Shown here: one piece after another, positions 29,953 to 33,080 of the stretch
Numbering within the stretch: the stretch's first letter is position 1
Layout of the letters: the number at the start of each line of letters is the position of its first letter
The notes under the pieces: generated by a model
Database searches by the model: none
The model's input: only the letters and a program-made list of their open reading frames with translations
What the model was told of the DNA's origin: nothing
Assembly (NCBI GenBank): GCA_009703125.1
Contig: WLGS01000007.1
Coordinates: 1 to 33,780 of the forward strand
Source: Actinomycetota bacterium
Lineage (GTDB): Bacteria; Actinomycetota; Acidimicrobiia; Acidimicrobiales; Ilumatobacteraceae
Reading direction: 5' to 3'
Length of the DNA: 33,780 nt
Made by a program: the position numbers and the translations under genes

Positions 29953-31128
29953 ATGCTTGCTTTTACATTCCCAGGACAAGGATCTCAGCGTCCTGGCATG
30001 GGTCGCCCTTGGCAACAACACGACAGCTGGGAATTGGTGGACGAAGCATCCCACGTAGCTGGCCGAGATGTGGGGGCCTTGTTATTGGATGCCGACGCCG
30101 ACACCTTGAAGGACACGCGCAATGCCCAGCTCACCACTTTTGTGGCCAGCTTGATGGTGTTGGACGCGGTAGAGCGTCTAGGAATTGTGCCCAGTTTCTG
30201 TGCGGGTCACTCATTAGGCGAATACACCGCTTTAACCGCAACTGGCGCTTTGTCTTTTGAAGATGGAGTGCGCCTGGTAGTTGAGCGAGCCGACGCCATG
30301 CACGATGCAGGTATCTCCTCGCCTGGAACCATGGCTGCAGTTCTGGGTCTCGATGACGATGTCGTGGAGGTCGCATGTCGCCGAGCAGACAGTGATGTGT
30401 GGGTCGCAAACTTCAATGCACCAGGACAAGTCGTCATCGCTGGCTCCCCAGAGGGTGTTGGCGCCGCAGGTGAACATGCGAGATCTTTAGGGGCGAAGAA
30501 GGTTATGCCGCTTCAAGTATCCGGAGCGTTTCACACACCATTTATGACGTCTGCTCGTGAACGCCTCCGCACAGCTATCACCCTTGCTTCTCCGCGAGAT
30601 ACCGAAGTTCCAGTGGTGTCAAATGTGGACGCTCTCCCCCATGCCACAGGCGATGAATGGTCATCGTTGCTCTCCGCACAACTCTCCAGTCCAGTGAGAT
30701 GGAAGCACTGCTTGTTGACATTGGCCGAACAAGGCGTGACAGGCTTCGTGGAGCTAGGTCCCGGTGGCGTGTTGACCGGAATGGCAAAACGTACGGTGGA
30801 TACGGCACGAACCATCAGCGTGTCGACTCCTGAGGAACTTGACAAGTTGATTGAGTGGGTAGGCGCCTCATCACCTACTGGTGGTGCACAAATCGAAGGA
30901 GAGCATCTCTTTGCAGTAGAGAGACTCGTAGTGAGTCCATCAGCAGGCGTCTTCACACCATCCGACTCGGTCTCTATCGGGTCCACAATCTCGGTCGGAA
31001 CAGTTATCGGGAGTATCGGTGACATTGAAGTGCGATCTCCATTTGCTGGCATCGTGCAGAACTTCATCGCAGTGCAGGGTGAACGCGTCACCACTCATCA
31101 GCCCATTGCTTGGCTACGGACGCAGTAG
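29953..31128 (+). CDS. fabD: Malonyl-CoA:ACP transacylase with C-terminal biotinyl/lipoyl-like domain
   Basis: Loads malonyl from CoA onto ACP to feed fatty-acid elongation. Residues 1-300 are a standard FabD: Gln9 in FPGQGSQ, nucleophile Ser87 in GHSLGEYTAL, Arg112 and His194 in GAFHTPFM. At 391 aa it is about 80 longer than usual. After a Gly/Ser linker (about 303-315), residues 325-391 read like a barrel-sandwich carrier domain (VVSPSAGVF near 326-334, then SPFAGIVQNF and GERVTTHQPIAWL). The hairpin that would carry the biotinyl or lipoyl Lys (MKM-like) is missing; the two halves join at GSIGDIEVRSP. So it probably acts as a docking or structural module and is not modified. It opens the fab operon; fabH follows after 4 bases. 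Confidence 0.95.
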   Translation: MLAFTFPGQGSQRPGMGRPWQQHDSWELVDEASHVAGRDVGALLLDADADTLKDTRNAQLTTFVASLMVLDAVERLGIVPSFCAGHSLGEYTALTATGALSFEDGVRLVVERADAMHDAGISSPGTMAAVLGLDDDVVEVACRRADSDVWVANFNAPGQVVIAGSPEGVGAAGEHARSLGAKKVMPLQVSGAFHTPFMTSARERLRTAITLASPRDTEVPVVSNVDALPHATGDEWSSLLSAQLSSPVRWKHCLLTLAEQGVTGFVELGPGGVLTGMAKRTVDTARTISVSTPEELDKLIEWVGASSPTGGAQIEGEHLFAVERLVVSPSAGVFTPSDSVSIGSTISVGTVIGSIGDIEVRSPFAGIVQNFIAVQGERVTTHQPIAWLRTQ

Positions 31129-31132
31129 AGCC

Positions 31133-32083
31133 ATGCCAAAGATTCCACAGAACGTGCGCGGTGCTCGATTCACTGGCTGGGGAACTGCGCTGGGACACAA
31201 GACTGTGACTAATCATGATCTGTCGCTCACTATTGACACAAACGATGAATGGATTCGCGAACGTACAGGCATTCATCGTCGTCATATAGGCGGATCCACA
31301 GCAGAATTAAGTGTGGCAAGTGGTCGTGATGCACTCGCCATGGCTGGAATTGCTCCTGAACAAATAGACGCCTTGGTGTTGGCAACAACTACACCGGACC
31401 GCACGGTTCCTGCCACCTCAGCCACCGTGCAGAATCTGCTAGGCCTACGCTGCGGCGCATTTGATGTCAATGCTGCGTGTTCAGGTTTTGTCTATGCACT
31501 CGTCAATGCGCACGGTCTCATTGCCATGGGTGCAGAAAAAGTCTTGGTTATCGGAACAGATACCTTGGCCCGCATCACCGATTGGCAAGATCGCAATACC
31601 GCAGTCTTGTTTGCCGATGGCTCTGGTGCTGCGGTCCTTGAACACACTCAGGGTCCGGGTCAATTGTTGGGCTGGGATCTCGATGCTGACGGATCTGCCG
31701 AAGACATTCTCTTTTGTGACATCGGGGGAAATATCCAGATGGATGGCAAAGAAGTGTTTCGGCGTGCAGTGCGGATCATGGTCGACAGTGCACAGAAATC
31801 AATGGCACACGCAGGTGTGCAGGCATCTGACATCTCCCTTATCGTTCCCCATCAGGCAAACATTCGCATCATCTCGGCAGCCTGTGAACGGCTCGAGATT
31901 CCTATGGAGAAGGCAGCCATCGTGATCGACAACACCGGCAATACCTCTTCGGCATCAATACCTCTTGCATTGTTCGACGCTGCCGACAAAGGCCGTCTAG
32001 CGCCGGGTGATCTTGTTCTCTTAGTGGGTTTTGGTGCGGGCATGACTGCAGCAAGTGCCGTTCTTGAATGGGGTACGCAATGA
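31133..32083 (+). CDS. fabH: 3-oxoacyl-ACP synthase III
   Basis: Starts fatty-acid synthesis by condensing an acyl-CoA primer with malonyl-ACP. The 316 aa protein has the complete triad Cys116 (DVNAACSGF), His240 (VPHQANIRI) and Asn270 (NTGNTSSASIPLAL), and the N-terminal NDEWIRERTGI motif. The start is the ATG at 31133, 4 bases past the fabD stop; the longer frame starting at 31019 runs inside fabD and is not family-like. It may use branched or straight primers; this cannot be told by eye. It overlaps fabG by 4 bases. Confidence 0.96.
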   Translation: MPKIPQNVRGARFTGWGTALGHKTVTNHDLSLTIDTNDEWIRERTGIHRRHIGGSTAELSVASGRDALAMAGIAPEQIDALVLATTTPDRTVPATSATVQNLLGLRCGAFDVNAACSGFVYALVNAHGLIAMGAEKVLVIGTDTLARITDWQDRNTAVLFADGSGAAVLEHTQGPGQLLGWDLDADGSAEDILFCDIGGNIQMDGKEVFRRAVRIMVDSAQKSMAHAGVQASDISLIVPHQANIRIISAACERLEIPMEKAAIVIDNTGNTSSASIPLALFDAADKGRLAPGDLVLLVGFGAGMTAASAVLEWGTQ

Positions 32084-32784
32084 GTCGAGTAGTTCTTATT
32101 ACAGGTGGTTCCAAAGGAATTGGGCTTGCATGTGCTCAACACTTCGCTGCGCTTGGCGACAAGGTGGCGATCACATATAACTCGACTCCTCCACCTGCGG
32201 AGTTCTTTGGCGTGAAATGTGACGTCACAGATGCAACGCAAGTTGATTCTGCATTTCGATCGGTTGAAGAACATTTCGGTCCGGTCGAAATTCTCGTCTC
32301 CAATGCAGGAGTTACAAAGGACACTTTGTTATTACGGATGAGTGAAGATGATTTCACTTCAGTCATTGATGCGAACTTGACGGGTGCATTCAGAGTTGTA
32401 AAGCGCGCCACCCCTTCAATGCTCAAGGCACGTAGAGGTCGAATCATTTTGATGTCTTCCGTGGTGGGCCTCTTGGGATCAGCGGGACAAGCCAATTATT
32501 CGGCGTCAAAAGCAGGGCTCGTCGGTTTCGCGCGTTCATTGGCTCGAGAATTAGGTTCTCGAAGCATCACCATCAATGTTGTGGCGCCTGGACCGGTAGC
32601 AACCGATATGACCGCTGCACTCTCGGCTGAGCGTTTGGGAGAACTTGCAGAAGCAGTTCCTTTGAAGAGAGTGGCTCAACCAGAGGAAATCAGTGCAGTT
32701 GTCGGTTTTCTTGCCAGCGAGGGAGCTGCTTACATCACAGGCGCGGTCATACCTGTGGATGGTGGCCTTGGCATGGGTCACTAG
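32080..32784 (+). CDS. fabG: 3-oxoacyl-ACP reductase
   Basis: NADPH-dependent short-chain dehydrogenase that reduces 3-oxoacyl-ACP in fatty-acid synthesis. The 234 aa protein has the cofactor motif TGGSKGIG (residues 8-15), SNAGVTKD, and the catalytic set Asn99, Ser127, Tyr140 and Lys144 (NYSASK). The C-terminus PVDGGLGMGH is typical. The ATG at 32080 overlaps the fabH stop (ATGA), pointing to coupled translation. A start at 32068 would add four residues with no benefit. Its place between fabH and acpP supports FabG over a general SDR. Confidence 0.95.
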   Translation: MSRVVLITGGSKGIGLACAQHFAALGDKVAITYNSTPPPAEFFGVKCDVTDATQVDSAFRSVEEHFGPVEILVSNAGVTKDTLLLRMSEDDFTSVIDANLTGAFRVVKRATPSMLKARRGRIILMSSVVGLLGSAGQANYSASKAGLVGFARSLARELGSRSITINVVAPGPVATDMTAALSAERLGELAEAVPLKRVAQPEEISAVVGFLASEGAAYITGAVIPVDGGLGMGH

Positions 32785-32843: not shown

Positions 32844-33080
32844 ATGAGTCAAGAAATTTTTGATCGTTTTGTGAAGTGTGCCGTAAAGACACTTTCAGTA
32901 GAGGCCTCTCAGGTCACCAAAGAAGCAACCTTCGCTGAAGATCTTGACGCCGATTCTCTTGACGTAGTGGAACTCGTGATGGAACTTGAAGAAGAATTTG
33001 GCATCGAGGTGCCAGAAGAAGAACTCCAAGACGTCAAGACCGTCGGTCAAGCATTCGACATCATCGTCGCAAAGTTGTAG
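32844..33080 (+). CDS. acpP: Acyl carrier protein
   Basis: Carries growing acyl chains on a phosphopantetheine arm. The 78 aa acidic four-helix protein has the attachment Ser38 in [18 protein letters not shown]. It has the best ribosome site in the operon (AAGGAG, 6 bases from the ATG), fitting the high level at which ACP is made. It lies 59 bases after fabG and 11 before fabF. Confidence 0.98.

Follow-up and report, generated by a model that had tools for sequence, protein, structure and literature searches.

A lysine-less biotinyl-type domain on FabD of a freshwater actinobacterium, and its possible role as a dock to acyl-CoA carboxylase

Introduction

The usual teaching on type II fatty-acid synthesis is that free enzymes share an acyl carrier protein (ACP). 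The FabD of a freshwater actinobacterium carries about 70 extra residues at its C-terminus, which raises the question of what this tail is and what it could do on the enzyme that receives malonyl-CoA. The original prediction, made from the DNA alone, was that FabD is here fused to a barrel-sandwich domain of the biotinyl/lipoyl type that has lost its lysine hairpin, and that such a domain might dock FabD to acetyl-CoA carboxylase or to ACP. Here the fold, distribution and gene neighborhood of the tail were analyzed.

Results

The fab operon and the enzyme part of FabD

The window, the whole stretch of DNA analyzed here (33,780 nucleotides), is the entire contig C118 of a 150-contig assembly of 1.93 Mb. 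Its 3′ end holds a fab operon in the order fabD, fabH, fabG-like, acpP and fabF (Table 1), with four bases between the fabD stop codon and the fabH start; the reductase gene presumably deserves the name fabG, which is taken from its place in the operon. Since the contig stops inside fabF, a gene 3′ of fabF is invisible in the window. The carboxylase genes of the same genome lie on contigs other than that of the fab operon, and a phage search gave no match.

Residues 1–284 of the fabD product matched TIGR00128 with 280.3 bits (cut-off 260.9), and the product retains the Ser of the GHSLG motif as well as the Arg and the His of the active site. H86, S87, R112 and H194, to which we assign the catalytic roles of FabD, are invariant in 75 aligned fusions. 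Judged from its sequence, the window FabD thus has a complete catalytic domain and is predicted to transfer malonyl groups.

Table 1. Features of the fab operon at the 3′ end of the window.
Feature	Position	Strand	Remarks
fabD ORF, tail included	29953..31128	+	391 aa, single frame
FabD (malonyl-CoA:ACP transacylase) domain, residues 1-306	29953..30870	+	TIGR00128; GHSLGEY around Ser87, Arg112, His194 retained
Flexible linker, residues 307-321, ending GEHLF	30871..30915	+	pLDDT <50
Lysine-less biotinyl-type barrel-sandwich domain (predicted), residues 323-391	30919..31125	+	GERVxxxQPIAWLR near end
Gly356-Asp357 tight turn at the AMKM-hairpin position of biotin carriers	31018..31023	+	predicted strands 351-355, 358-361
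fabH	31133..32083	+	PF08541, PF08545; TIGR00747 313 bits
fabG-like reductase	32068..32784	+	PF13561, PF00106; overlaps fabH
acpP (acyl carrier protein)	32844..33080	+	PF00550
fabF, incomplete at contig end	33092..33780	+	PF00109; open-ended ORF

The tail is modeled as a barrel sandwich of the biotinyl type

AlphaFold2 gave high confidence for FabD and tail when run on the whole protein with 75 rows, the tail lying mostly at about 90 pLDDT or more, and a pLDDT of 92.3 for the tail by itself with 67 rows. Upstream of the barrel domain, from about position 30898, the linker holds a conserved arm, GEHLF, whose residues G316, E317, H318, L319 and F320 are invariant in 75 sequences. With the tail model as query, Foldseek returned a Pyrococcus BCCP as best match (E 1.4e-5) and the efflux adaptor BesA as runner-up. 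VIA-align ranked E. coli BCCP 4hr7_G, from a complex with biotin carboxylase, as best match (Z 12.6, rmsd 0.9, 67 residues), ahead of 1bdo and Arabidopsis BCCP1 and of BesA at Z 11.5, matches less than 1 apart in Z being counted as tied. Profile matches of the window tail stayed below cut-off: PF00364 (Biotin_lipoyl) reached E 0.0057 and 16.9 bits (cut-off 22.1, passed by four of ten stand-alone relatives tested), PF13437 reached 16.4 bits (cut-off 22.2) and TIGR03309 (YqeB) reached E 3.4e-6 and 26.7 bits, far under its cut-off of 220. The model therefore describes the tail as a barrel sandwich of the biotinyl type. With one ORF for enzyme and tail, and BCCPs as the top structural matches, this agrees with the original prediction, for which an AlphaFold model with no such fold had been named as the counter-evidence.

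At the hairpin that bears AMKM in biotin carriers, the fused form is four residues shorter and is modeled with a tight turn. Among 121 distinct tails the hairpin has 6 residues in 83 and 10–11 residues in 38, neither MK nor KM occurs in it in any of the 121, and a Lys stands elsewhere within it in three (L089, L105, L117). A functional carrier domain was ruled out on the absence of MK and KM. In the stand-alone relative L083, the hairpin aligned without gaps to that of the AccA-type BCCP encoded by the genome of the window, EGPGT standing opposite EAMKM. The expectation that the lysine hairpin is gone thus held for the fused form and failed for the stand-alone relatives, in which the hairpin has its full length and the motif is missing. 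This suggests that loss of the Lys preceded the shortening of the hairpin. On the model, the tail is best described as a pseudo-biotinyl domain that would be unable to carry biotin or lipoate.

Distribution of the domain

A search with the whole protein gave a full-length, one-frame match in 42 of 61 genomes, that of the window included, and fabD plus tail form a single frame in 74 of the 80 loci of the genome_contigs set, which rules out chance or a frame error. The remaining six are four loci cut by contig ends, the frame-split L161, and L189, which begins just before the tail. In L062 (G019) and L161, fabD plus tail is divided between two frames by a frameshift or an assembly error, and the two may be one genome present twice.

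Of the 298 genomes sampled from the order, 246 contain the domain and 271 gave a FabD match; tabulated by hand, 243 genomes had both, 28 FabD only, 3 the tail only and 24 neither. Frames of at least 389 aa surround 148 of the 150 tail matches listed for the order, which suggests fusion to FabD. The search for the same fusion in relatives, proposed with the original prediction, was thus positive, and the alternative named there, a common FabD C-terminus, proved true within the order only: solved FabDs align with the window protein only to about residue 303 and lack the tail, which excludes a generic FabD C-terminus. Tail matches were found in 54 of 148 genomes of the class sample and, at 1e-6, in 65 of 396 of the phylum sample, both counts including order members and some weak hits that do not belong to the tail gene. 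Since a match at 1e-6 is missing from the majority of the phylum sample, type II synthesis as a whole appears able to proceed without the domain.

Twenty-three of the 28 order genomes with FabD and no tail were inspected: ten of family f22, three of f58, G122, G082, G252 and seven others. G252 turned out to have the tail when a wider profile was used, and in seven of the 23 the FabD match lies inside frames of >1,000 aa, probably polyketide synthases. Other f22 genomes, such as G057, gave no FabD match at 1e-20.

A separate-gene form, fused forms on the FabD tree, and selection

In relatives a small gene of its own, placed between fabD and fabH, often encodes the domain, and the window tail corresponds to the product of this gene. 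Loci were chosen by hand and fetched from 18 of 31 matching class genomes outside the order and from 22 of 45 phylum genomes outside the class. Thirty-four of these 40 lie in fab operons (excluded are L093, L094, L096, L112, L116 and L119, outside such operons). In 33 of the 34 the domain is preceded by fabD, and in 33 it is followed by fabH. Three of the 34 (L095, L106, L111) show a fusion of domain and FabD and 31 do not; the separate gene is also present in six order loci (L037–L042). Ten stand-alone proteins searched against Pfam and NCBIfam matched no model at cut-off besides the generic PF00364, and the weak NCBIfam matches of stand-alone forms were mostly to carboxylase BCCP models.

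Some neighbors and outliers were recorded beside these loci. The match in L096 is of the lipoyl type and includes a Lys. L093 and L094, which belong to other families of the class, each encode a divergent homologue that also lacks the Lys (E ~1e-13 and 1e-11); in both it stands outside fab operons, near genes named by eye as efp, nusB, pyrR, pyrB and pyrC and near a phosphatase-like gene. MerR-type regulator and FabZ-like genes, also named by eye, adjoin fabD or the stand-alone gene on the opposite strand in L038, L039 and L040.

In a rapidly built FabD tree with 65 domains, which omits four of the ten f22 loci and L226 and places the long branches L111, L113, L207 and L211 uncertainly, the states fused, separate and absent required 7 changes, against a shuffled mean of 26.9. 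The fused state required 6 changes, at least 2 of them forced by well supported branches; each may be a fusion or a split. On this tree, FabD with a fused domain occurs in at least two lineages. Apart from L211, the class rows with a separate gene form one supported FabD clade, of 19 rows.

In 44 close pairs of equal length, which are not independent of one another, the median dN/dS was 0.12 for the tail and 0.046 for FabD. These pairs were used because window pairs, with pN of 0.14–0.20 in the tail and 0.09–0.15 in FabD, are saturated at silent FabD sites. The values point to purifying selection on the tail.

Carboxylase genes near the domain

Carboxylase genes were sought in the loci with the AccA- and AccD-type proteins of the window's genome. 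Of the 19 class operons with the separate gene that were tested, 17 have accD (carboxyltransferase) directly 3′ of fabF, in the same orientation. Specifically, it was present in 6/6 order loci (L270–L274, L302) and in 11/13 loci of the class outside the order (L081, L083, L250, L251, L254–L259, L261), and was absent after fabF in L252 and L253. No accD followed fabF in fused loci, whether in the order (0/16: L275–L287, L289, L242, L243), outside it (0/3: L260, L266, L268) or in the genome_contigs set (0/47, each reaching at least 1,500 bases past the fabF frame, with genomes that may repeat). Class operons without the domain also lacked it (0/20: eight f22, three f58, G122 and L318–L325 of other families; L293 is visible only about 1,000 bases past fabF and L319 has no detectable fabF). 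Outside the class, one of 11 loci with a separate gene had accD (L118; L262–L265, L267, L303–L306 and L308 did not). The tally leaves out L039 and the loci that end near fabF (L088, L269, L288, L307, L309). Since the class operons with a separate gene are one FabD clade, a single inherited event may account for accD in these operons, and the presence of accD in an operon gives no information on physical contact.

Two further arrangements of carboxylase genes were seen. In L324 and L325 (G701 and G698, family f129), an AccA-type gene (biotin carboxylase + carrier) lies immediately 5′ of fabD, and the domain is absent. In G000, an ESMKM biotinylatable domain and the start of a carboxyltransferase run off contig C40 (L249) and seem to continue in C102 (L248), in a frame distinct, by eye, from the AccA-type gene beside a biotin-ligase-like gene in L244.

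The company of fabH

fabH follows the tail in all 71 testable genome_contigs loci, its homology beginning 7–54 bases on; three of the 74 loci were too short for this test. The adjacency of fabD and fabH in itself tells little, since fabH also stands directly after fabD in 8/8 domain-less class operons. L039 and L118 have the domain beside fabH with no adjoining fabD, in f58 fabH is present and the domain absent, and in L092 the domain is present in an operon without fabH.

In none of the ten f22 genomes with a fabD match is fabD followed by the domain or by fabH; their fabH is located elsewhere, and the domain is absent there too. G122 has a truncated tail and its fabH elsewhere, and its congener G187 has tail and fabH at both fabD copies. 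In a FabH tree, G122 grouped with f22 and the operon FabH of L057 (support 86), and G187 with L055. G082 (88% complete) has neither the domain nor fabH beside fabD, and a FabH search at 1e-15 returned nothing for it. The pattern of joint loss counts two independent pairs on supported branches and four in all. By eye, a nucleotidyltransferase-like gene follows the extra-operon fabH in L228 and L234 (f22) and in L238 (G122).

Discussion

Relation to known systems

The tail shares the barrel-sandwich fold with the BCCP of acetyl-CoA carboxylase, and the stand-alone form also shares the length of the hairpin; unlike BCCP, the tail has no biotinylation motif, its fused hairpin is four residues shorter and it is found in a fab operon or on FabD itself. 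Efflux adaptors of the HlyD type (BesA, MacA, EmrA) have the same fold (Z 10.7–11.5), to which the weak PF13437 match also points; they are, however, parts of membrane-fusion proteins, and the tail stays below the PF13437 cut-off. The weak profile match is all that is shared with YqeB.

The closest precedent by analogy is plant BADC. In the passages of PMC11926652 that deal with them, BADC proteins are BCCP relatives in fatty-acid synthesis that lack the biotinylation motif, first thought to be inhibitors and later called a 'glue' that aids carboxylase assembly. Like them, the tail is BCCP-like without a biotinylation motif; in contrast, BADC acts on the heteromeric plant carboxylase, and those passages make no mention of a FabD fusion (PMC11926652).

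Limited literature searches, covering open-licence papers, found no report of the FabD fusion or the stand-alone gene. The tail is apparently a member of a wider, undescribed family in fab operons.

What the tail may do

A lysine-less carrier fold that is under selection and has been joined to FabD in at least two lineages most likely binds something. The favored partner is a carboxylase: the tail is akin to BCCP, accD accompanies the separate gene in most class operons tested, and FabD requires malonyl-CoA. The tail would then be a pseudo-BCCP and a putative dock of FabD to acyl-CoA carboxylase, a tentative reading to which we give a probability of about 40%. It would act as a non-catalytic module on a flexible tether and bind a carboxylase subunit (AccD, biotin carboxylase or the true BCCP) at the seat of the carrier domain, so that FabD would be brought to the source of malonyl-CoA, or the carboxylase would be tuned, as by plant BADC. 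Fusion to FabD may, in a further step of this scheme, have happened once accD had left the operon. Consistent with such docking, the nearest structures are BCCPs, the first of them from a complex with biotin carboxylase; accD accompanies 17/19 class separate-gene operons and 0/20 domain-less ones; L083 aligns through the hairpin without a gap to the BCCP of the window's genome, and BCCP models match weakly; the dN/dS of 0.12 indicates purifying selection; BADC provides a precedent; and fusion to FabD is seen in the order and in L095, L106 and L111. However, the fused operons have no accD, only 1/11 outside the class has it, and its company may be a single inherited event. In addition, an AccA-type gene precedes fabD in f129 despite the absence of the domain, efflux adaptors are almost equally near in structure, and the domain is missing from most of the phylum sample.

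Joint loss with the operon fabH suits another partner better. In an initiation complex, the domain would keep FabD beside FabH, or hold malonyl-ACP on its way to FabH. Such docking is favored by the joint loss of domain and operon fabH (10/10 f22, G122, G082, with G187 keeping both), by fabH after the domain in 33/34 class and phylum operons and 71/71 genome_contigs loci, and by L039 and L118, where the domain has fabH and no fabD as neighbor. Yet fabD and fabH are adjacent without the domain in 8/8 class operons and in f58, L092 has the domain in an operon without fabH, and the joint loss comes down to two supported independent pairs, four in total, of which G122 would be explained by a single deletion. 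We therefore regard docking to FabH or ACP as somewhat unlikely and rank docking to carboxylase above it. That the domain has no partner outside FabD, and stabilizes or oligomerizes the enzyme as an appendage, would fit its fusion to FabD in at least two lineages; the disordered linker of the model and the separate protein encoded without fabD alongside in L039 and L118 make this improbable. Still less can be said for a sensor in which the barrel sandwich would bind an acyl chain or CoA ester and regulate FabD: the arm is conserved and the last strand contains a Trp, but nothing specific speaks in its favor and no such relative is found among the structural matches listed, so that we consider it very improbable. 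The loss of Lys and hairpin, and the missing or truncated domain in some lineages, would also be expected of a neutral remnant of a lost BCCP gene; with a dN/dS of 0.12, invariant motifs and retention across the order, the class and parts of the phylum, this is the least credible of the explanations.

Implications

The domain may, at somewhat less than even odds, be an unnamed non-catalytic subunit of the type II system that links the making of malonyl-CoA to FabD, or FabD to FabH, in much of the class and parts of the phylum, fused to FabD in at least two lineages. Relatives offer both the fused and the separate form, some with accD alongside and some without it, so that these ideas are easy to test, and the GEHLF arm and the GERVxxxQPIAWL strand are the sites of interest for function. 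If true, there would be a physical link between the supply and the use of malonyl-CoA, or an initiation complex, built on a carrier fold that carries nothing, and the tail would be, by analogy, a bacterial counterpart to plant BADC.
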